From: Oscillospiraceae bacterium
GTDB taxonomy: Bacteria; Bacillota; Clostridia; Oscillospirales; Acutalibacteraceae
Assembly (NCBI GenBank): GCA_015066385.1
Contig: SVOJ01000012.1
Location: 19,201 to 83,200, forward strand
Reading direction: 5' to 3'
Length of the DNA stretch: 64,000 nt
Position 1 is the first letter of the stretch; each line of letters starts with the position of its first letter. Under the pieces are notes generated by a model. The model was not told the DNA's origin and did not search any database. It saw only the letters and a program-made list of their open reading frames with translations. Position numbers and translations under genes: made by a program. Shown here piece by piece: positions 6,694 to 18,105 of this stretch.

Positions 6694-7725
6694 ATGAAAA
6701 AGTTTGTTTCCCTTTTCCTTTGCACTCTTCTTTGCATGAGTTTGCTTGCAGGCTGTGCAACCGACACCGCTGACCCGACAAATGAAGCTACCGATGCCGC
6801 TTCTGCGGGTAATGTTCTTTCCGCAGGTGATGCAACCGAGGACAACGAAAAATTTGTGGTCGGTATCTGCCAGCTTGCTCCCCACGAAGCACTGGATGCC
6901 GCTACCCAAGGTTTTCAGGATGCTTTGATCGATGAATTGGGTGCCGAAAATGTTGAATTCATTCTGCAGAATGCCGCAGGCGAAGCCAACACCTGTACGA
7001 CCATCGTCAATGACTTCGTTTCCAAGGAAGTGGATTTGATTATGGCAAACGCAACTGCCGCTCTGCAGGCAGCCGCCAATGCAACGCTTGATATTCCGAT
7101 TCTCGGCACATCCATCACCGAATACGGTGTAGCCCTTGAATTGACCGATTTCGACGGCACTGTCGGCGGCAACATTTCGGGCACTTCCGACCTTGCTCCC
7201 CTTGATGAACAGGCACAGATGGTCATTGACCTTGTTCCCGATGCAAAGACGGTCGGTCTGCTGTATTGCTCGGCAGAACCCAACTCCGAATACCAGGTCA
7301 AGGTTGTCAGAGAATACCTTGAAGGCAAAGGTCTGACGGTTGAAGATTTTGCTTTCTCCGCTTCTTCCGACGTAGCACAGGTTGCCGAAGCCGCCGCTGC
7401 CGCTTGTGATGCTCTTTACATCCCCACCGACAACACCGCCGCTTCCTGCACCGAAACCATCAACAACGTTGTTCTTCCTACCGGCACGCCCATCATTGCA
7501 GGTGAATCCGGAATCTGCTCCGGTTGCGGTATTGCAACCCTTTCCATCAGCTACTATGAACTCGGCAAAACCACGGGTGCCATGGCTGCAAAGATCCTCA
7601 AGGGTGAAGCCGACATCGCCGAAATGCCGATCGAATACGACAACAACCCCGTCAAGAAATACAACGCAACAAACTGCACGGAACTGAACATCACCGTTCC
7701 CGAAGATTACGAACCCCTCGCATAA
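6694..7725 (+). CDS. ABC transporter substrate-binding lipoprotein (ABC_sub_bind/TrpX family)
   Basis: Lipobox LLAGC; FVVGICQLAPHEALDAATQGFQDAL...VDLIMANATAALQAAANATLDIPILGTSITEYG. Confidence 0.85.
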   Translation: MKKFVSLFLCTLLCMSLLAGCATDTADPTNEATDAASAGNVLSAGDATEDNEKFVVGICQLAPHEALDAATQGFQDALIDELGAENVEFILQNAAGEANTCTTIVNDFVSKEVDLIMANATAALQAAANATLDIPILGTSITEYGVALELTDFDGTVGGNISGTSDLAPLDEQAQMVIDLVPDAKTVGLLYCSAEPNSEYQVKVVREYLEGKGLTVEDFAFSASSDVAQVAEAAAAACDALYIPTDNTAASCTETINNVVLPTGTPIIAGESGICSGCGIATLSISYYELGKTTGAMAAKILKGEADIAEMPIEYDNNPVKKYNATNCTELNITVPEDYEPLA

Positions 7726-7787
7726 ATATTAAAAACAACCATACAGTGCCGCTGTAAAAGGCGGCACTTTTTGACAGGAGGATATTT

Positions 7788-8687
7788 ATGGGTGCATTAT
7801 TGAATGCGTTGCCGGGTGCCGTTGCCCAAGGACTGATCTGGGGCATTATGGCAATCGGTGTCTATATTACATACAAAGTTCTTGACCTTGCAGACCTGAC
7901 CGTGGACGGCTCGATGGTAACCGGCATGGCCGTTTGTGCGGTGCTGATGGCAAACGGCTGGAATGTGTGGCCTGCGATGCTCATGGCATTTCTTGCAGGT
8001 ATGGCGGCAGGGCTTGTGACGGGCATTTTCCACACGGCGATGGGCATTCCCGCCATTCTTGCGGGGATTCTGACACAGCTGATGCTGTGGTCCGTAAACC
8101 TGAAAATCATGGGCAAAGCCAATCAGGCATTGCCGGCCCGTACCTTTGATGTGCTGATTACACAGCTTCGCAAAAATGAAGCACTGATCATTCTTGCTGT
8201 TTTCTGTGTTGTGCTGATCGCCGTTTTGTATTGGTTCTTCGGCACTAAATTCGGTTCGGGCATCAGGGCTACGGGATGCAACGAAAAAATGGCAAGAGCA
8301 CAGGGCATTGACACCAATTTCAACAAGTGCATCGGGCTGATTCTTTCCAACGGCATCGTTGCATTTTCGGGTGCACTGCTTGCACAATATTCGGGCAAAG
8401 CAGACATCAACGACGGCCGCGGTGCCATCGTGATCGGACTTGCGGCTGTTATTATCGGCGATGCACTCGTGTCACGGTTCAAGCCCAATTTCATCATTCG
8501 GCTGCTGGGTGTTGTGCTGGGCGGTGTTGTGTATTACATCGTCTATCAGGTTGTCATCTTCCTCGGCCTTGACACCGACCTTCTGAAAATGCTTTCGGCA
8601 GTGGTGGTTGCGGTGTTCCTTGCCGTTCCGTATCTGAAGAAAAAATACTTTTCACATCCGATGAAAAAGCACAAGGAGGCGGCATAA
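7788..8687 (+). CDS. ABC transporter permease (TrpY/branched-chain type)
   Basis: LAVTVDGSMV-like DLADLTVDGSMVTGMAV and multiple TM segments; between binding protein and ATPase. Confidence 0.85.
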   Translation: MGALLNALPGAVAQGLIWGIMAIGVYITYKVLDLADLTVDGSMVTGMAVCAVLMANGWNVWPAMLMAFLAGMAAGLVTGIFHTAMGIPAILAGILTQLMLWSVNLKIMGKANQALPARTFDVLITQLRKNEALIILAVFCVVLIAVLYWFFGTKFGSGIRATGCNEKMARAQGIDTNFNKCIGLILSNGIVAFSGALLAQYSGKADINDGRGAIVIGLAAVIIGDALVSRFKPNFIIRLLGVVLGGVVYYIVYQVVIFLGLDTDLLKMLSAVVVAVFLAVPYLKKKYFSHPMKKHKEAA

Positions 8688-9482
8688 ATGTTAGAAATCA
8701 AAAATGTAACCAAAATATTCAATGCAGGCACGGTCAATGAAAAAATTGCACTCAACAACATTTCGCTGACTCTGAACGACGGCGATTTTGTGACCGTTAT
8801 CGGCGGCAACGGTGCAGGCAAATCAACCATGCTCAACGTGACCGCAGGCACCTATGGTGTAGACGACGGACGCATCATCATTGACGGCAAAGATGTTACC
8901 AAACTGCCCGAATACAGGCGTGCAAAATACATAGGCCGCGTGTTTCAGGATCCCATGGTCGGCACGGCAGCCGATATGTGGATTGAAGAAAACATGGCAC
9001 TCGCACAGCAAAGAGGCACACGCCGAGGGCTTTCATGGTCAATCACAAAAAAAGACCGCGAAAAATTCAAAGAAATGCTTGCCCGCCTCGACCTCGGCCT
9101 CGAAAACCGTCTTTCCACCAAAGTTGCATTGCTTTCGGGCGGTCAGCGTCAAGCCGTCACCCTGCTGATGGCATCCATGATGCAGCCCAAACTCCTGCTT
9201 CTGGATGAACACACTGCCGCCTTGGACCCGAAAACCGCCGCAAAGGTGCTTGACATTACGGAAAGCATTGTCAACGAAACAAAACTGACGACCCTGATGA
9301 TCACACACAATATGAAAGATGCACTGCGACTTGGCAACCGCCTGATCATGATGCACGAAGGCAAAATCATTTTTGACGTTGCAGGCGAAGAAAAACAGAA
9401 TCTGACCGTTGCGGACCTGCTCAAGAAGTTCGAACTTGCAAGCGACGGCACGTTTGCAAACGACCGAATGCTGTTAGCATAA
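8688..9482 (+). CDS. ABC transporter ATP-binding protein (TrpZ type)
   Basis: Walker A GGNGAGKST, signature LSGGQRQA, Walker B LLLLDEHTAALDP. Confidence 0.9.
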   Translation: MLEIKNVTKIFNAGTVNEKIALNNISLTLNDGDFVTVIGGNGAGKSTMLNVTAGTYGVDDGRIIIDGKDVTKLPEYRRAKYIGRVFQDPMVGTAADMWIEENMALAQQRGTRRGLSWSITKKDREKFKEMLARLDLGLENRLSTKVALLSGGQRQAVTLLMASMMQPKLLLLDEHTAALDPKTAAKVLDITESIVNETKLTTLMITHNMKDALRLGNRLIMMHEGKIIFDVAGEEKQNLTVADLLKKFELASDGTFANDRMLLA

Positions 9483-9525
9483 TTTATTATTTTAAAAATT
9501 TAGCACATTAAATTGCAAAAATATC

Positions 9526-9554
9526 TTGACAAACATTTTTCACGGTGGTATACT
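9526..9554 (+). promoter_or_regulatory. Sigma70-type promoter for attenuator/aromatic operon
   Basis: TTGACA (9526-9531), 17-bp spacer, TATACT (9549-9554). Confidence 0.8.
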
Positions 9555-9582
9555 TTTTTTATCAACCGTACAGGAGTTCTTT

Positions 9583-9645
9583 ATGAAACACACATCCTTT
9601 GCAACAGCATACTTTTTTTACTTTTACTTTAACGACAAAAAGTAA
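9583..9645 (+). CDS. Phe/Tyr-rich leader peptide of transcription attenuator
   Basis: ATG AAA CAC ACA TCC TTT GCA ACA GCA TAC TTT TTT TAC TTT TAC TTT AAC GAC AAA AAG TAA = MKHTSFATAYFFYFYFNDKK*; AGGAG at 9572-9576. Confidence 0.85.
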   Translation: MKHTSFATAYFFYFYFNDKK

Positions 9646-9732
9646 AGGTTTTTTCGCTGTACCGCAAAGGCAAAGTTTTAACACTACTTTTCTTCAGCCG
9701 CAGTGAAAAACCTGCGGCTGATTTTATTTTTA
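9646..9732 (+). promoter_or_regulatory. Attenuator: mutually exclusive antiterminator and terminator
   Basis: Terminator CAGCCGCAG (9695-9703)/CTGCGGCTG (9712-9720) then ATTTTATTTTT. Competing helix AGGTTTTTTCGCTG (9646-9659) with CAGTGAAAAACCT (9701-9713): 13 pairs, one bulged T, one G-U. Confidence 0.8.
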
Positions 9733-9757
9733 TCATCATTTTACGGAGTTGCTTACT

Positions 9758-10852
9758 ATGATCGCAGTACTCAAACACAACACAACCGACGAACAACTCA
9801 AAAACCTGACCGACTGGCTGGCTTCGCAAGGTCTGGGCATACACATTTCCCGCGGTAATTACCAGACCATTGTCGGACTCATCGGCAACACAAGCAATGT
9901 GGATATTGAACTGATTGAAAGCCTTGAAATGGTGGAATCCGTACAAAGGGTTTCCGATCCGTTCAAAAGCATGGCAGCCGCCCTGAACACAGCAGACAGA
10001 GAATACACCGTCGGCATTGTCGGACTGGGACTTATCGGCGGCTCCATGGCGAGTGCCTACAAAGCGGCAGGCTGGACGGTGCTCGGTGCCGACCGTGATG
10101 CAACCACACTCGGCTACGCAAAACTTGCCGACATTATTTCCGATGAATTGACCGTGGACAACATAAACAAATGCGATCTGCTCATGATTGCCCTGTATCC
10201 GCAGGCAACCATCGGCTGGCTCAACGAAAATGCCTGCAAGATCAGCAAAAGCACCACCGTCATCGACCTTTGCGGCATCAAAGAAAGCGTGTGCGAGATC
10301 GGATTCCGAAAAGCCGCAGAACACGGCTTTGTGTTTATCGGTGGCCATCCCATGGCAGGCACACAGTTTTCGGGCATCAAATACAGCCGCTCCAACCTGT
10401 TCAAGGGGGCACCGATGGTGCTTGTACCCCCCGTATCTGACGACGAAATGTTGATTGAAAATGTTAAAAATATGCTCGCTCCTGCCGGGTTCGGTCGGTT
10501 TTCCGTCACCACGGCAAAAGACCACGACCGCATGATCGCATTCACTTCACAACTTGCACACGTTGTATCCAACGCTTACATCAAAAGTCCCACGGCCGAA
10601 CGCCACGGCGGTTTTTCGGCAGGCTCTTACAAGGATATGACAAGGGTTGCCTGGTTGAATGAGGAAATGTGGACACAACTGTTTCTTGAAAACGGCGAAG
10701 CACTGAACTTTGAACTCGACACCATCATAAATGCACTCACGCAATACCGTGATGCCATTGCAGACAAGGATGCACCCCGCCTGAAGGCACTGCTTCGTGA
10801 CGGCAGAATTGCCAAAGAAAACATAGACGGCAACGGGAAGGTGAAACAATGA
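9758..10852 (+). CDS. tyrA: Prephenate dehydrogenase with N-terminal DAHP-synthase-type ferredoxin-like domain
   Basis: GIVGLGLIGGSMASAYKAAGW, GGHPMAGTQFSGI, AFTSQLAHVVSNAY. N-terminus MIAVLKHNTTDEQLKNLTDWLASQGLGIHISRGNYQTIVGLIGNT...VESVQRVSDPFK resembles the regulatory domain of type I-beta DAHP synthase. ATG at 9758 after ACGGAG. Confidence 0.88.
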   Translation: MIAVLKHNTTDEQLKNLTDWLASQGLGIHISRGNYQTIVGLIGNTSNVDIELIESLEMVESVQRVSDPFKSMAAALNTADREYTVGIVGLGLIGGSMASAYKAAGWTVLGADRDATTLGYAKLADIISDELTVDNINKCDLLMIALYPQATIGWLNENACKISKSTTVIDLCGIKESVCEIGFRKAAEHGFVFIGGHPMAGTQFSGIKYSRSNLFKGAPMVLVPPVSDDEMLIENVKNMLAPAGFGRFSVTTAKDHDRMIAFTSQLAHVVSNAYIKSPTAERHGGFSAGSYKDMTRVAWLNEEMWTQLFLENGEALNFELDTIINALTQYRDAIADKDAPRLKALLRDGRIAKENIDGNGKVKQ

Positions 10853-11901
10853 AAACGGTAAGGGTCAACGCTTCAAAACAATATGAAGTTCGCATAAAAG
10901 ACGGCTTGCTCAAAGAAGCAGGACAGCAGATTCTGACGGTAAAAAAAGCATGCTCCTGTGTGCTTGTATCGGATGAAACGGTGTTTTCGATCTATGGCGA
11001 AACCGTTGTGCAATCCTTGCAGAATGCAGGCTTTTGTGTGCATACATTCCTCATTCCCCCGGGGGAAAGCTCCAAAAGCACCGCCAATCTTGTAAACCTG
11101 TGGGAATATCTTGCAGACTGCAACATCACAAGAAGCGACCTGCTTGTTGCCCTCGGCGGCGGCGTGGTCGGTGACTTAACGGGCTTTGCAGCGGCAACCT
11201 TTTTAAGAGGTATTGACTTTGTGCAGATTCCTACCACCTTGCTTGCCATGGTCGATTCCTCGGTCGGCGGTAAAACGGCGGTGGACCTGCAACACGGCAA
11301 AAACTTAGCGGGTGCTTTTTATCAGCCGAGCCTTGTGCTCTGCGACCCGTCCGCACTGGGCACACTGACTCCCGAAATTTTTGCCGACGGCATGGCGGAA
11401 GTCATCAAATACGGCTTTATCAACCGTCCCGAACTGATTGAAAAACTTGAAAAACAAGCGGACATAACCGATATCATCACCCTTTGCGTGGAAGACAAGC
11501 GTGACATCGTGGAACAGGATGAACGCGACAACGGTTGCCGACAACTTCTGAATCTCGGGCACACATTGGCACACGGTATTGAACTGCATTCCGGCTATAC
11601 CGTTTCGCACGGAAGTGCCGTTGCTGTCGGCATGGTACTCATCACAAAAGCCGCCGTCAAAGCAACTCTTTGTCCGCAGGAAACACTGGATATCCTACTC
11701 AATTTACTTCAAAAATACAATCTGCCGACAAAAACGCAGTTTACCTGTGAACAGCTTTGCGAAGCGGCGTTGGAAGACAAAAAACGCAAAGGCTCTTTTA
11801 TTACCCTTGTCATTCCGACCCAAACGGGCAGATCGGAACTGAAAAAGACAGCCATTGAAGACTTACCTGCATTTCTTATAAAGGCATGGGATAACACATG
11901 A
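10849..11901 (+). CDS. aroB: 3-dehydroquinate synthase
   Basis: LLVALGGGVVGDLTGFAAATFLRGIDFVQIPTTLLAMVDSSVGGKTAVDLQHGKNLAGAFYQP. Confidence 0.95.
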   Translation: MKTVRVNASKQYEVRIKDGLLKEAGQQILTVKKACSCVLVSDETVFSIYGETVVQSLQNAGFCVHTFLIPPGESSKSTANLVNLWEYLADCNITRSDLLVALGGGVVGDLTGFAAATFLRGIDFVQIPTTLLAMVDSSVGGKTAVDLQHGKNLAGAFYQPSLVLCDPSALGTLTPEIFADGMAEVIKYGFINRPELIEKLEKQADITDIITLCVEDKRDIVEQDERDNGCRQLLNLGHTLAHGIELHSGYTVSHGSAVAVGMVLITKAAVKATLCPQETLDILLNLLQKYNLPTKTQFTCEQLCEAALEDKKRKGSFITLVIPTQTGRSELKKTAIEDLPAFLIKAWDNT

Positions 11902-13136
11902 CAAAAACAATTGACAATCGCCCTCTCGGCGGAAAAATTCATGCAATTCCCTCCAAAAGCGAGGCACACAGACTGCTCATCTGTGCAGCTTTGAGCGACA
12001 AAAAAACAAAAATCACCTGCCCGCAGACAAGCAAAGACATTCAGGCGACCGCCGACTGCCTTTGTGCGTTGGGGGCTTCCATTACATATGAAAACGGGAT
12101 TTACACCGTTGCACCGATTCGGCAACCCGTCAGCAATGCGATTTTACCCTGCGGAGAATCGGGTTCGACCATACGTTTTTTAATTCCGCTTGTGTGCGGA
12201 TTGGGCGTTTCGGCGGTCTTTCAAATGGAAGGCAGACTCCCTGACCGACCGCTGTCCCCCTTAAAAGAAGAACTCGAAAACCACGGTATCTGTTTTGAAA
12301 AAAACGGCAATCTCCTTACGGTAAGCGGCACTTTGCAGGGACACGACTTCACCATTGATGCAGGTGTGTCTTCGCAGTTCATAAGCGGGATGCTGTTTAT
12401 GCTGACCCGCCACGGCGGCACACTGACCCTCACGGGGAAGATTGAAAGCAGCTCGTATATCGACATGACCGTACGTGCGTTGCAAAAATACAAAGCCGCC
12501 TTGCAAAAGACGGAAAACGGGTTTGCCGTTGAACACAGGATTCTCGCGGCAGATGCACAACTGCATACGGAAGGTGACTGGTCAAATGCCGCATTCTTTC
12601 TGTGTGCAGGCAGTTTCGGCAAAAAACCGATCACCGTCACGGGACTGGATTTTCAATCGGCACAGGGTGACAAAAAAATTGTTGAAATCCTCAAACAATT
12701 CGGTGCAAGAATTGAAATAAAAGCCGATGCCGTCACTGTCTTTGCATCCGAATTGCACGGCATTTCCATTGATGCATCGCAAATTCCCGACCTTGTGCCT
12801 GTGCTGGCAGTCGCAGCCTGTGCGGCAAAGGGAACGACCCGCATTTACAATGCACAACGGCTTCGCCTGAAAGAAAGCGACCGTTTGCAGACAACAAAAG
12901 ACCTGCTGTGTGCTTTGGGTGCGGATGTGACGATCACAGAAGACGGTCTTTTGATAAACGGGCAAAAGCCCTTGCACGGTGCGTGTGTGGACAGTGCAAA
13001 CGATCACCGCATTGCCATGTCTGCCGCCGTTGCCGCCGTTTTGTGCGACACGGATATTACACTTTCGGGAGCACAAGCGGTAGAAAAATCCTATCCCGCA
13101 TTCTGGGATGATTTCGACAAACTGAAAGGGGAATAA
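11898..13136 (+). CDS. aroA: 3-phosphoshikimate 1-carboxyvinyltransferase (EPSP synthase)
   Basis: PSKSEAHRLLICAAL, CGESGSTIRFLIPL, RLRLKESDRLQTT, NDHRIAMSAAVAA. Confidence 0.95.
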   Translation: MTKTIDNRPLGGKIHAIPSKSEAHRLLICAALSDKKTKITCPQTSKDIQATADCLCALGASITYENGIYTVAPIRQPVSNAILPCGESGSTIRFLIPLVCGLGVSAVFQMEGRLPDRPLSPLKEELENHGICFEKNGNLLTVSGTLQGHDFTIDAGVSSQFISGMLFMLTRHGGTLTLTGKIESSSYIDMTVRALQKYKAALQKTENGFAVEHRILAADAQLHTEGDWSNAAFFLCAGSFGKKPITVTGLDFQSAQGDKKIVEILKQFGARIEIKADAVTVFASELHGISIDASQIPDLVPVLAVAACAAKGTTRIYNAQRLRLKESDRLQTTKDLLCALGADVTITEDGLLINGQKPLHGACVDSANDHRIAMSAAVAAVLCDTDITLSGAQAVEKSYPAFWDDFDKLKGE

Positions 13137-13138
13137 AA

Positions 13139-14215
13139 ATGCTCACCCCATACGGCAACAATTTAAAAATTTACATAGAGGGCGGCTCGCACGACGAAAA
13201 GATCGAATTGTTTTTGGACGGTTTTCCGTCGGGCATGCAGGTCGATGAAGATGCCTTGCAATCCTTCATGAACCGCCGTGCACCGGGACAAAATGCGTTT
13301 TCAACCACACGCAAGGAAGCCGACAAACCTGTTTTTCTGTCAGGGCTGACAAACGGCAAAACCGACGGCAGCCGCATTCATGCCGTAATTTACAACAGCA
13401 ATCAGCACTCGTCGGACTATTCTTTCGTTAAAGAAACGCCCCGTCCGTCCCATGCCGATTTCTGTGCCATACAGAAATACGGGCAGGATGTGGATCTTCG
13501 CGGCGGCGGTCATTTTTCGGGCAGACTCACAGCCATGCTGTGTGTGGCAGGTGCACTGTGCAAGCAATATCTGCAGGAAAAAGGCATCGAAGTGTTTGCC
13601 CACATTCACAGCATCGGCGGCATCAAAGACATTCCGTTCGACCTTTGCAAGGTCGGCAAAACGGAACAAAAACTTCTTGCCGACAGACCCTTTGCCGTGC
13701 TCGATGAACAGGCAGGACAAAAAATGCAGGAGCTTATTCTGCAGGCAAAAGCAGATTGCGACTCTGTGGGCGGTATTGTTGAATGTGCCGTTACGGGATT
13801 ACCCGTGGGCTTGGGGGAACACCTGTTTGCAGGTGTTGAAAGCAGAATTGCCGCCGCCGTTTATTCCGTCCCCGCCGTCAAAGGGGTGGAATTCGGCAAC
13901 GGCTTCGGCTGTGCTTCGCTTTTCGGTTCGCAAAACAACGATCCGTTTGAAACGGACGGACAGAAAATATATACCAAAACCAACAACTGCGGCGGCATCT
14001 TGGGCGGGATGACAAACGGCATGCCCCTTGTGTTCAGGGCCGCATTCAAGCCGACACCCAGTATTGCAAAAGAACAAGCCACGGTGTCGCTTTCCAAAAT
14101 GGAAAACACAACTTTAAAAATAAAAGGACGGCACGACCCCTGCATTGTGCAAAGAGCCGTACCCGTCACGGAAGCCGCCGCCGCAATTGCGGTGTGCGAT
14201 CTGTTACTCGACTGA
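13139..14215 (+). CDS. aroC: Chorismate synthase
   Basis: GNNLKIYIEGGSHDEKIELFLDGFPSG, RPSHADFCAIQKYGQDVDLRGGGHFSGRLTA, NNCGGILGGMTNGMPLVFRAAFKPTPSI. Confidence 0.95.
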   Translation: MLTPYGNNLKIYIEGGSHDEKIELFLDGFPSGMQVDEDALQSFMNRRAPGQNAFSTTRKEADKPVFLSGLTNGKTDGSRIHAVIYNSNQHSSDYSFVKETPRPSHADFCAIQKYGQDVDLRGGGHFSGRLTAMLCVAGALCKQYLQEKGIEVFAHIHSIGGIKDIPFDLCKVGKTEQKLLADRPFAVLDEQAGQKMQELILQAKADCDSVGGIVECAVTGLPVGLGEHLFAGVESRIAAAVYSVPAVKGVEFGNGFGCASLFGSQNNDPFETDGQKIYTKTNNCGGILGGMTNGMPLVFRAAFKPTPSIAKEQATVSLSKMENTTLKIKGRHDPCIVQRAVPVTEAAAAIAVCDLLLD

Positions 14216-14226
14216 GGGTGAAAAAA

Positions 14227-15387
14227 ATGGAAAATGAATTGCAATCTTTAGATACATTAAGACAACGCATTGACGAAGTGGACCGCCAACTGGTTGAGTT
14301 GTTCAAGGAGCGAATGGAAATCAGTGCAGGCGTGGCACAGTATAAACGTGCAAACGGAAAACCCGTGTACGACGGTGCCCGTGAACGTGAAAAACTGGCA
14401 AAGGTGTCCGCACTTGCGGGAGAGGATTTTGCCGACTACAGCAGGGTGCTGTATTCCACCATTATGTCGCTGTCGCGATCCTATCAGGAAAAACTGCTCG
14501 GCACGCAGTCACAGACGGGTGAAATCCTTGCAAAAGCCGAACAGAACACCCCGAAGCTGTTTCCGACAACCGCGAAAGTGGCTTGTCAGGGCATTGAGGG
14601 TGCTTATTCACAGATTGCGGCGCAAAATCTGTTTGAGCTGCCGCAGATTACATACTACCCGACCTTTGAGGGTGTTTTTGAGGCCATTGAATCGGGCACA
14701 TGCCGCTACGGTGTGTTGCCGCTTGAAAACAGCACGGCAGGATCGGTCGGCAAGGTGTATGACCTGATGCTGAAAAAGAATTTTTACATCGTGCGGTCAT
14801 TCCGTTTGAAAATCGACCACAACCTGCTTGTTAAAAAAGGGGTACGTTTTGAAGATATCCGCGAGGTGTTCTCGCATGAGCAGGCAATCAGCCAGTGTGC
14901 GTCTTTCTTAAAAGCCAATCCGCAGATCAAAGTGACCGCGTGTCCCAACACCGCCATGGCGGCACGGCTTGCCGCCGAAACCGACAGAAACGATGTGGCG
15001 GCTCTCTCCTCACGTGATTGTGCACAATTGTACGGTCTTGTGAATCTTGCCGCAAGCGTACAGGACAATGCAAACAACCACACAAGATTTATCTGCATTT
15101 CACGCACACCCGAAATTTATCCCGGTGCAGACAAGACCACGCTTATGATGATTGCACCGCACAAACCCGGTGCACTGTATGTGCTTCTTTCACACTTCTT
15201 TGCACACGGAATCAACATTTCAAAATTGGAAAGCCGTCCTCTGCCCGACCGCGATTTTGAATTTTTGTTTTATCTTGACCTCGATGTGTCGGTCTATTCC
15301 CCGAAACTACCCATGGTGCTGGCAGAACTCGAACGGCAAAGCGAGCAGTTCCGTTATTTGGGCAGTTATATTGAACAGATAGGATAA
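14227..15387 (+). CDS. pheA: Bifunctional chorismate mutase/prephenate dehydratase
   Basis: N-terminal LDTLRQRIDEVDRQLVELFKERMEISAGVAQYK; then CQGIEGAYSQIAAQNLF, SHEQAISQCASFL, ESRPLPDRDFEFLFYLDLDV. Confidence 0.93.
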   Translation: MENELQSLDTLRQRIDEVDRQLVELFKERMEISAGVAQYKRANGKPVYDGAREREKLAKVSALAGEDFADYSRVLYSTIMSLSRSYQEKLLGTQSQTGEILAKAEQNTPKLFPTTAKVACQGIEGAYSQIAAQNLFELPQITYYPTFEGVFEAIESGTCRYGVLPLENSTAGSVGKVYDLMLKKNFYIVRSFRLKIDHNLLVKKGVRFEDIREVFSHEQAISQCASFLKANPQIKVTACPNTAMAARLAAETDRNDVAALSSRDCAQLYGLVNLAASVQDNANNHTRFICISRTPEIYPGADKTTLMMIAPHKPGALYVLLSHFFAHGINISKLESRPLPDRDFEFLFYLDLDVSVYSPKLPMVLAELERQSEQFRYLGSYIEQIG

Positions 15388-15391
15388 AATT

Positions 15392-16636
15392 ATGGAACAT
15401 GCAGAAAATTTCAGGGCAGGCTTAATCGGGCACAAACTGTCGCACAGTTTTTCGCCGCAGATTCACGCAGAACTTGCCGATTATGAATATAAACTTTTTG
15501 AACTTGAACCCGACGAGATTGGTGCATTTTTACAAAACGGCAATTTTGATGCCACAAATGTGACCATTCCCTACAAAAAAGAAGTGATGCCGTTTTTGGC
15601 GGAAATTTCCGAAGAAGCACAGAAAATCGGTTCGGTCAACACCATTACCCGCACCGCAAAGGGGCTTAAAGGCGATAACACGGACTATTTCGGTTTTTTG
15701 TATATGCTTAAAAAAAGCGGTATTGCGGTAAAAAACAAAAAATGTCTTGTGCTCGGCTCGGGTGGAGCTTCGGTCACGGTCTGTGCGGTACTCAAAGACA
15801 TGGGTGCAGATGTGGTTGTCATCTCCCGTTCGGGTGAAGATAATTACGAAAACCTTGACCGCCACAAAGATGCGGCTGTGATTGTGAACACCACACCCGT
15901 CGGAATGTATCCGAATACAGGCATATCCCCTGTTGACCTGACCGTGTTTCCCGTTCTTGAAGGGGTGCTTGACCTTATTTACAACCCTGCAAGAACACAG
16001 TTGCTTCTCGATGCACAGAAACTGAATATCCCTTGTTTGAACGGTCTTGCCATGCTGACCGCACAGGCAAAAAAGGCCTGCGAACTGTTTTTAAACACGC
16101 AGATTGACGACAGTGAAATTGACCGCATCACCGCAAAAATCGCTTCGGACAGCGAAAACATCATTCTTATCGGCATGCCCGGGTGCGGAAAATCCACCGC
16201 CGGCAAAGCCCTTGCCGAAATGACGGGCAGGCAGTTTGTTGATACAGATGAAATAATCGAGCAAAAAGCGGGGATGCCCATTCCCGACATTTTTGCAAAA
16301 TACGGTGAAGTGCACTTCCGCACACTTGAACACGAAGCGGTGTGCGAGTGTGCAAAAAAAAGCGGCCTCGTGCTTGCCACGGGCGGCGGTGTAATCAAAA
16401 CAAAAGAAAACTACAATTGTCTGCATCAGAACGGCAAAGTCATCTGGTTGCAACGGGATGTGAACCTGCTTGCAACGGACGGCAGACCCCTGTCGCAGCA
16501 AAGCGGTGTTTTCAAACTTTATGAGGAACGAAAACCCCTGTATGAATACTTCTGCGACATTGCAGTGCAATGTGACACCGATGCAACCATAACGGCAAAA
16601 AACATTCTTACCGCTTTCAAGGAGGTACAGACATGA
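15392..16636 (+). CDS. aroE-aroK: Shikimate dehydrogenase-shikimate kinase fusion
   Basis: AroE half: GLIGHKLSHSFSPQIHAEL, NVTIPYKKEVMPFL, GDNTDYFGF. AroK half: NIILIGMPGCGKSTAGKALAEMTGRQFVDTDEIIEQKAG, ATGGGVIKTKENY. Confidence 0.93.
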   Translation: MEHAENFRAGLIGHKLSHSFSPQIHAELADYEYKLFELEPDEIGAFLQNGNFDATNVTIPYKKEVMPFLAEISEEAQKIGSVNTITRTAKGLKGDNTDYFGFLYMLKKSGIAVKNKKCLVLGSGGASVTVCAVLKDMGADVVVISRSGEDNYENLDRHKDAAVIVNTTPVGMYPNTGISPVDLTVFPVLEGVLDLIYNPARTQLLLDAQKLNIPCLNGLAMLTAQAKKACELFLNTQIDDSEIDRITAKIASDSENIILIGMPGCGKSTAGKALAEMTGRQFVDTDEIIEQKAGMPIPDIFAKYGEVHFRTLEHEAVCECAKKSGLVLATGGGVIKTKENYNCLHQNGKVIWLQRDVNLLATDGRPLSQQSGVFKLYEERKPLYEYFCDIAVQCDTDATITAKNILTAFKEVQT

Positions 16637-17061
16637 AAATTCTTGTGATCAACGGGCCGAATCTCAATTTATTGGGACTGCGCGAACCCGACCTATACGG
16701 CAAACAGGATTACAAAGCCCTTTGTGAGTTTATAAAAGAAAACAGTCTCGGCAATGAAGTGGAACTGTTTCAGTCCAACCACGAGGGTGTCATTGTGGAT
16801 AAAATCCAATCCGCATATAAAAACTTTGACGGCATCGTTATCAATCCCGCCGCCTACACACACACGTCCGTTGCCATTTTAGATGCACTCAAGGCGGTCG
16901 GAATTCCGACCGTGGAAGTACACCTGACCGACATTGCCCAACGAGAAGCATTCCGTCAGCACTCTTTTGTTTCACTGTATGCGGAAAAACAAATCAAGGG
17001 CAAAGGCTTTGACGGTTATGCACAAGCAATCGGATATTTAACAAACAAGTACGGAAAGTGA
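16633..17061 (+). CDS. aroQ: 3-dehydroquinate dehydratase, type II
   Basis: KILVINGPNLNLLGLREPDLYG, INPAAYTHTSVAILDAL, EVHLTDIAQREAFRQHSFVS. Confidence 0.95.
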   Translation: MKILVINGPNLNLLGLREPDLYGKQDYKALCEFIKENSLGNEVELFQSNHEGVIVDKIQSAYKNFDGIVINPAAYTHTSVAILDALKAVGIPTVEVHLTDIAQREAFRQHSFVSLYAEKQIKGKGFDGYAQAIGYLTNKYGK

Positions 17062-17073
17062 GGTATATTTATT

Positions 17074-18105
17074 ATGTCTATGGATTTCAAACGCAAACTC
17101 CCCATCCCGATGGAGGTCAAAGAAAAGTTCCCCGTATCCTTTGCGGCAACGCAGAAAAAAGAAGCAATTGATGCCGAGGTCGCCGATGTGTTCAAAGGTG
17201 AATCGGACAAAAAAATCCTCATCATCGGCCCGTGTTCGGCTGACCGTGCGGATGCTGTTTTTGAATATTGCGAAAGACTTAAAAATGTGCAGGAGCAGGT
17301 CAAGGATAAACTGATTCTCATTCCCCGCATTTACACCAACAAGCCCCGCACCACAGGCGAAGGCTACAAAGGAATGCTGCACCAGCCCGATCCCAACAAC
17401 AAGCCCGACCCGTTCCAGGGCATTCTCGCCATCCGTGAACTGCACACAAGAGTGCTGACGGAACTTGGCATGTCCACCGCGGACGAAATGCTCTATCCCG
17501 CCAACCACCGTTATTTAAGCGACCTGATGAGTTATGTTGCCGTGGGTGCACGTTCAAGCGAAAATCAGGAACACCGCCTTGTGGCAAGCGGCATTTCCGT
17601 TCCCGTCGGCATGAAAAATCCCACCGCAGGCGATCTTTCCGTTATGCTCAACTCCGTCAAAGCCGCACAGGCAAGCCACTCCTTCATTTACAGAGGCTGG
17701 GACGTGGAAACCAGCGGCAACCTCCTTGCACACGCCATTTTAAGAGGTTTTGTTAACAAACACGGACAGTCAATGCCCAACTACCACTATGAAGACCTCG
17801 AAATGCTGTGCGAAATGTATGCAAAATCGGGCATTGCAAACCCCGCCGCCATCATCGACTGCAACCATGCAAACTCCGACAAAAAGTGGTTTGAACAACC
17901 CCGTATCTGCAAAGAAGTTCTGCACTCCTGCCGCCACAATGCGGACATTGCAAAACTGGTCAAGGGCTTCATGATCGAAAGTTACCTCGAAGACGGTAAT
18001 CAGAAGATCGGCCCCGACGAAGTGTACGGCAAATCCATCACCGACCCGTGCCTGGGCTGGGAAAAGAGCGAAAAACTCATCCTCGAAATCGCGGATCTTA
18101 TATAA
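17074..18105 (+). CDS. aroF: DAHP synthase, AroF/G/H (type I-alpha) family
   Basis: IIGPCSADRADAVFEYCERL, IPRIYTNKPRTTGEGYKGMLHQPDPN, ARSSENQEHRLVASG, IDCNHANSDK. Confidence 0.93.
   Translation: MSMDFKRKLPIPMEVKEKFPVSFAATQKKEAIDAEVADVFKGESDKKILIIGPCSADRADAVFEYCERLKNVQEQVKDKLILIPRIYTNKPRTTGEGYKGMLHQPDPNNKPDPFQGILAIRELHTRVLTELGMSTADEMLYPANHRYLSDLMSYVAVGARSSENQEHRLVASGISVPVGMKNPTAGDLSVMLNSVKAAQASHSFIYRGWDVETSGNLLAHAILRGFVNKHGQSMPNYHYEDLEMLCEMYAKSGIANPAAIIDCNHANSDKKWFEQPRICKEVLHSCRHNADIAKLVKGFMIESYLEDGNQKIGPDEVYGKSITDPCLGWEKSEKLILEIADLI

Follow-up and report, generated by a model that had tools for sequence, protein, structure and literature searches.

The region at 9526-9732, directly upstream of a cluster of aromatic biosynthesis genes, raises the question of how the entrance to this pathway is controlled in a genome of the Clostridia. 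Ribosome-mediated attenuation is a textbook mechanism; leader-peptide attenuation is treated as mainly proteobacterial and actinobacterial, with T-boxes filling this role in Firmicutes. The window, which here means the whole analysed stretch of 64,000 nucleotides, comes from an Oscillospiraceae bacterium, and a sequence-only reading of it had proposed a complete Phe/Tyr transcription attenuator at this position. The promoter, the Shine-Dalgarno sequence and the 20-codon leader with seven Phe/Tyr codons in a row were all recovered where that reading had placed them, as were the strong terminator and the pairing that competes with it. The leader region contains the following elements:

9526-9554, + strand: sigma-70-type promoter, TTGACA (from 9526), a 17-nt spacer and TATACT (ending at 9554), with an extended -10 TG and 11 of 12 consensus matches
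9572-9576, + strand: Shine-Dalgarno AGGAG of the leader, read from the sequence and also found in relatives
9583-9645, + strand: leader ORF MKHTSFATAYFFYFYFNDKK, 20 codons, ATG at 9583 and stop TAA at 9643-9645
9620-9649, + strand: hairpin 1:2, pairing 9620-9630 (last aromatic codons) with 9639-9649 (stop region), -9.1 kcal/mol
9646-9660, + strand: antiterminator 5' arm AGGTTTTTTCGCTGT, predicted to lie beneath a ribosome that has reached the stop codon
9694-9731, + strand: intrinsic terminator, a 10-bp hairpin (9694-9721) followed by the T-rich tail TTTTATTTTT, -18.3 kcal/mol
9701-9713, + strand: antiterminator 3' arm CAGTGAAAAACCT, overlapping the 5' arm and loop of the terminator

The promoter elements are likewise present in the relatives L002-L004. 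The leader ORF holds eight Phe/Tyr codons, and the seven consecutive ones (sensor codons Y10-F16) occupy 9610-9630. The hairpin at 9694-9721 is the sole terminator-like site within 9300-9900. Specifically, AGGTTTTTTCGCTG (9646-9659) pairs with CAGTGAAAAACCT (9701-9713) in an antiterminator duplex of -16.8 kcal/mol, near the value of the terminator, and at this locus (L010) the duplex is better than 200 of 200 dinucleotide shuffles. Antiterminator and terminator share a segment and are mutually exclusive here by duplex tests and folding.

Downstream, eight tightly packed co-directional genes extend over 9758-18105, and their packing and shared direction fit a single operon. Pfam analysis of the eight genes identified all seven shikimate steps together with the Tyr and Phe branches, bearing out the earlier statement that the entire shikimate pathway lies behind the leader:

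9758-10852, + strand: first structural gene, an FXD (DAHP-synthase ferredoxin-like) domain fused to prephenate dehydrogenase (tyrA; PF18152, PF02153, PF20463)
10849-11901, + strand: aroB, 3-dehydroquinate synthase (Pfam)
11898-13136, + strand: aroA, EPSP synthase (Pfam)
13139-14215, + strand: aroC, chorismate synthase (Pfam)
14227-15387, + strand: pheA, chorismate mutase-prephenate dehydratase (Pfam)
15392-16636, + strand: aroE-aroK fusion, shikimate dehydrogenase and shikimate kinase in one gene (Pfam)
16633-17061, + strand: aroQ, type II dehydroquinase (Pfam)
17074-18105, + strand: last gene of the operon, a class I family DAHP synthase without the FXD domain (Pfam)

From the sequence comparisons and folding models given below, we consider it very probable that the region is a ribosome-mediated transcription attenuator, which would sense charged tRNA-Phe and tRNA-Tyr and gate the whole shikimate-Phe-Tyr operon. 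When Phe and Tyr are plentiful, the ribosome would pass the seven Phe/Tyr codons, reach the stop at 9643 and cover 9646-9655; the antiterminator would be blocked, the terminator (9694-9721) would form and transcription would end. With either amino acid in short supply, the ribosome would be expected to stall within the run; 9646-9660 would then stay uncovered and could pair with 9701-9713 while the 3' arm of the terminator is still unmade, and RNA polymerase would presumably read through into tyrA-aroB-aroA-aroC-pheA-aroEK-aroQ-DAHPS. The sensor codons match the end products of the operon (Phe and Tyr).

Concerning the relatives, the first-gene protein (FXD-tyrA) occurs again in 256 of 301 genomes within the same taxonomic family. 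What counted as a leader was a short ORF with a Shine-Dalgarno sequence ahead of it, located upstream of aroF or tyrA and containing a stretch of eight codons of which five or more are aromatic. Such a leader was found upstream of tyrA in 70 of the 97 loci of a first sample, drawn largely from that family and otherwise from MAGs titled Clostridia or Oscillospiraceae bacteria, a count that includes a few chance ORFs inside aroF, the great majority being at the expected place on inspection. The distance to tyrA is usually about 1.2 kb, because the DAHP synthase gene (aroF) intervenes as the first gene; in L041 and L038 the leader stands directly before tyrA, with the same elements kept. For a wider sample, searches of the order, class and phylum started from aroF, and the leader was sought 20-320 nt before it. 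It was present at 93 of 120 order and class loci and at 107 of 150 order, class and phylum loci (opposite-strand control: 1 of 150), proportions which, like that of the first sample, come from best-scoring matches biased to close relatives and are not estimates for whole taxa. A terminator lies between the aromatic run and aroF at 105 of these 107 loci, and the other 43 aroF loci have no leader by these criteria. Twenty loci lacking a leader by the same criteria gave no Rfam element either; aroF loci with neither include L148, L149, L155, L160, L163, L165, L196, L241 and L250. Judged from these sequences, the leader-attenuator arrangement is widespread in the Clostridia and not peculiar to the genome of the window. 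Within that genome no second leader was found among 30 inspected places, and a genome-wide search for five consecutive Phe/Tyr codons was uninformative (84 + 56 matches, against 118 + 103 for the reversed pattern).

The leader peptides themselves are highly divergent (MNRNFFATKYFYFYFYSQKQ, MKTNVFAAEYFYFYFIKKI, MKNMTFTAAYYYDYFYFTRCK), with aromatic density and position constant. In each of the 168 distinct leaders that are followed by a terminator, the aromatic run lies in the ORF frame (frame 0; 1 and 7 in the other frames), and nucleotide shuffles reach the same aromatic density in 2.8% of cases; as leaders were chosen for their aromatic run, the opposite-strand control given above is fairer than this frame test. 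Both Phe and Tyr occur in the densest window of 159 leaders, and 35 of the 168 have a Trp codon somewhere. Distant clades (L080, L095, L098, L092, L233, L252, L254, L257) have longer leaders with the recurring cores RFTGFGYPRFFWAWDF and GFYFSAGYF, and sometimes Trp codons; these long leaders are perhaps sensors of three amino acids.

For each locus, the best terminator lying after the run and ahead of the first gene was determined, and then the best duplex that the segment behind the run can form with the 5' arm plus loop of that terminator. Within the family, the antiterminator duplex beats 95% of dinucleotide shuffles at 45 of 69 loci. Since a MAFFT alignment of 22 leaders aligned the arms only partly, column-wise covariation was replaced by a cognate-versus-noncognate duplex test, which compares pairing to the own terminator with pairing to the terminators of other species after removal of row and column means. 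Antiterminator arms of the family set pair better with their own terminator than with those of other species by a mean of 5.6 kcal/mol (z = -14.4, n = 63); when the arms were shuffled, z was -3.2 to -3.9, and when they were reversed it was -2.8, which gauges the composition effect. The order, class and phylum set, which shares a few genomes with the family set, gave z = -18.4 (n = 105; reversed control -3.8). A third helix, the hairpin 1:2 that the earlier reading had not mentioned, coevolves likewise, with z = -23.8 over 165 loci in a similar test (control -4.8). Compensatory exchanges are visible by eye, as in GTGATTT/AAATCAC, GTGCTTT/AAAGCAC, GCTTGTTTT/AAAACAAGC and GGTTTTTT/GAAAAACC. Additionally, AAAAGTAA, the 3' arm of hairpin 1:2, reads K-K-stop in the window and K-S-K in L030, which argues that it is held at the RNA level. 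The attenuator proposal had been staked on conservation of the aromatic run and of the two competing helices in relatives; both are conserved, and the helices coevolve across the order, class and phylum.

Ribosome geometry was evaluated with a footprint that spans roughly -25 to +12 relative to the A site, an assumption taken from E. coli values. The 5' arm of the antiterminator begins 16-25 nt (interquartile range) behind the aromatic run. At 147 of 168 loci it lies within the footprint of a stop-codon ribosome, and at only 5 would a ribosome halted on the final aromatic codon reach it, so that the predicted masking at the stop, and freedom during a stall, hold in footprint geometry. Folding of the window with the occluded segment, proposed beforehand as a check, agreed in part. 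With RNA ends at 9711-9717, the modelled antiterminator probability is 0.00 for a ribosome at the stop and 0.91-0.95 for a stalled one, while at RNA end 9721 the equilibrium outcome is mixed, with 0.85 for a stall at Y10, 0.07 at Y13 and 0.41 at F16. Once the full terminator is out, equilibrium thus favours or ties with the terminator at two of the three stalls, so in this model the switch must be kinetic. Without a ribosome, at RNA end 9711, hairpin 1:2 (0.97) and the antiterminator (0.95) coexist in the model and barely compete; hairpin 1:2 is probably a timing or pause hairpin, whose effect would lie in polymerase pausing more than in competition.

Across the 168 loci, mean sequestration of the terminator arm was 0.49 with no ribosome, 0.39 with a ribosome at the stop and 0.78 with a stalled one. 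The stalled value exceeds the stop value by more than 0.3 at 93 loci and is lower by that much at 2, and the stop-codon fold still sequesters the arm above 0.5 at 59 (about a third). The same code returned, in the same order, 0.14, 0.23 and 1.00 for E. coli pheL and 0.06, 0.07 and 0.26 for trpL. The stop-versus-stalled direction predicted across the loci is that of a classical attenuator, and the comparison with pheL-pheA that had been drawn from the letters stands, as pheL folds in the same direction.

The conservation data also bear on a different reading of the leader, in which the nascent peptide itself binds free Phe/Tyr or another ligand and so halts the ribosome, with no shortage of charged tRNA involved; TnaC stalls in this manner with Trp as ligand. 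We regard this as improbable. Some distant clades do keep a peptide core (RFTGFGYPRFFWAWDF, GFYFSAGYFCC) that includes non-aromatic residues, but the recurring K-S-K and F-C-C residues coincide with the RNA arms AAAAGTAA and TTTTGCTGC, and the clade of the window keeps mainly aromatic content, with F and Y interchanging and TTT, TAT, TAC and TTC all in use. The logic would also be inverted, since high ligand ought to shut the operon off.

A metabolite-binding riboswitch or T-box, to which the short ORF would be secondary, is very improbable. T-boxes are widely used in Clostridia, and the Rfam T-box model has eight matches in this very genome (L100-L107), but none of them lies at the aro operon, and the RNA consists of three simple helices whereas it is the ORF and its codons that are conserved. 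At the gathering threshold, neither the window nor any of 20 relatives with a leader matches a family of Rfam 15, and scans of the window and 40 relatives at gathering and lenient thresholds found no described RNA, the lenient matches being at chance level. A T-box (RF00230) as the element of the aro operon was rejected, there being no covariance-model match at the locus.

Ribosome-mediated attenuation of the aro operon would thus operate in a cell that also uses T-boxes. Their targets were assigned by eye from the protein sequences of the first downstream ORFs, and are apparently pheS, aspS, tyrS, thrS, trpB, a LeuA-like synthase and two acyl-CoA-ligase-like genes. The sequence-only reading had set its attenuator against the T-boxes of Firmicutes; with apparent pheS, tyrS and trpB T-boxes present, the contrast becomes a division of labour within one cell. 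From the sequence, the cell would seem to read tRNA-Phe and tRNA-Tyr in two ways, through T-boxes where the synthetases are encoded and through a stalling ribosome at the operon for biosynthesis, and the handling of Trp by the apparent trpB T-box fits a leader without Trp codons. The two acyl-CoA-ligase-like genes have an HTH-cupin-like N-terminus and are unexpected as T-box targets.

That the hairpin just ends transcription of the ABC-transporter operon upstream, as an ordinary intrinsic terminator beside a fortuitous leader ORF, can hardly be credited: the last transporter gene does end at 9482, just 44 bp ahead of the leader promoter, but that promoter is near-consensus and stands between transporter and leader, while throughout the order, class and phylum all three elements (leader, terminator and antiterminator) accompany aroF or tyrA, with coevolving helices, and L041 and L038 keep them directly before tyrA. 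The transporter operon itself (ABC_sub_bind, BPD_transp_2 and ATPase) occupies 6694-9482, directly 5' of the attenuator, and neither a T-box nor an obvious leader ORF was found ahead of it. Its neighbourhood suggests an aromatic amino acid as substrate.

Compared with known systems, the proposed attenuator resembles E. coli pheL-pheA in combining a leader rich in end-product codons, an intrinsic terminator and an antiterminator freed by a stalled ribosome. It differs in having Tyr besides Phe as sensor codons and in preceding eight genes of a whole pathway, not pheA. Moreover, the untranslated nascent RNA of the window is predicted to form the antiterminator, in contrast with the low no-ribosome value of pheL, since there is little overlap between hairpin 1:2 and the antiterminator. 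Both leader peptides begin with MKH, which is probably a coincidence.

Stav et al. 2019 (PMC6429828, Fig. 6b) present two candidate shikimate-associated uORFs with F and Y codons, from five genomes with Clostridium novyi among them. As far as the figure legend describes them, these are alike in Phe/Tyr codons and shikimate genes and may be the same element; unlike the present analysis, the legend holds nothing on an antiterminator, coevolution or distribution. The uORFC-13-1 motif (PMC8632094, 2021) is a uORF with Phe before aroF beside a terminator, for which attenuation was proposed, but it comprises 24 representatives from Acholeplasma and environmental sequence only, with at least one Phe codon. 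Histidine leader-peptide attenuators have been reported in Firmicutes, including some Eubacteriales (PMC9413887; PMC2965389; PMC4833913), and differ in their His codons, in their genes and in the few genomes concerned (17 in PMC9413887). A 2010 survey (PMC2965389) stated that leader-peptide attenuation was unshown outside Proteobacteria and Actinobacteria, with two exceptions, the hisS case of that survey and the atypical leader of ermC. No paper describing this Phe/Tyr element in detail was found in the open literature. The mechanism is already known, as are, briefly and to the extent of the 2019 figure, F/Y-rich uORFs before shikimate genes; what appears to be new is the breadth, the geometry and the co-use with T-boxes on pheS, tyrS and trpB in the same genome.

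More tentatively, and with less than even confidence, the sequence and folding data may point to an old attenuator class that goes with aroF operons across Clostridia and some neighbouring classes, with joint Phe/Tyr sensing to which Trp codons were added in some clades. Such a class would have a split design, in which the coding run and stop region form the timing hairpin, a separate switch arm lies behind the run at the spacing given above, and ribosome-free leaders read through, unlike E. coli pheL. The attenuator is an apparently common control at the entrance to aromatic biosynthesis in Clostridia, where such control is barely known. Together with the T-boxes of the same genome it offers a natural comparison of two ways to read the same tRNAs; coupling of transcription and translation at the aro locus is a further prediction.

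Finally, the FXD-TyrA fusion at 9758-10852 is shared by L002 and L003, while L004 is unfused: there the FXD domain (66% identical over 91 aa) sits in a DAHP synthase ahead of a separate tyrA. A DAHP synthase of the L004 type has no match in the genome of the window at E 1e-30. Judged from sequence, the fusion looks like an in-frame loss of the DAHP synthase core that grafted the allosteric domain onto TyrA, and the terminal DAHP synthase without FXD (17074-18105) presumably replaces the lost aroF.
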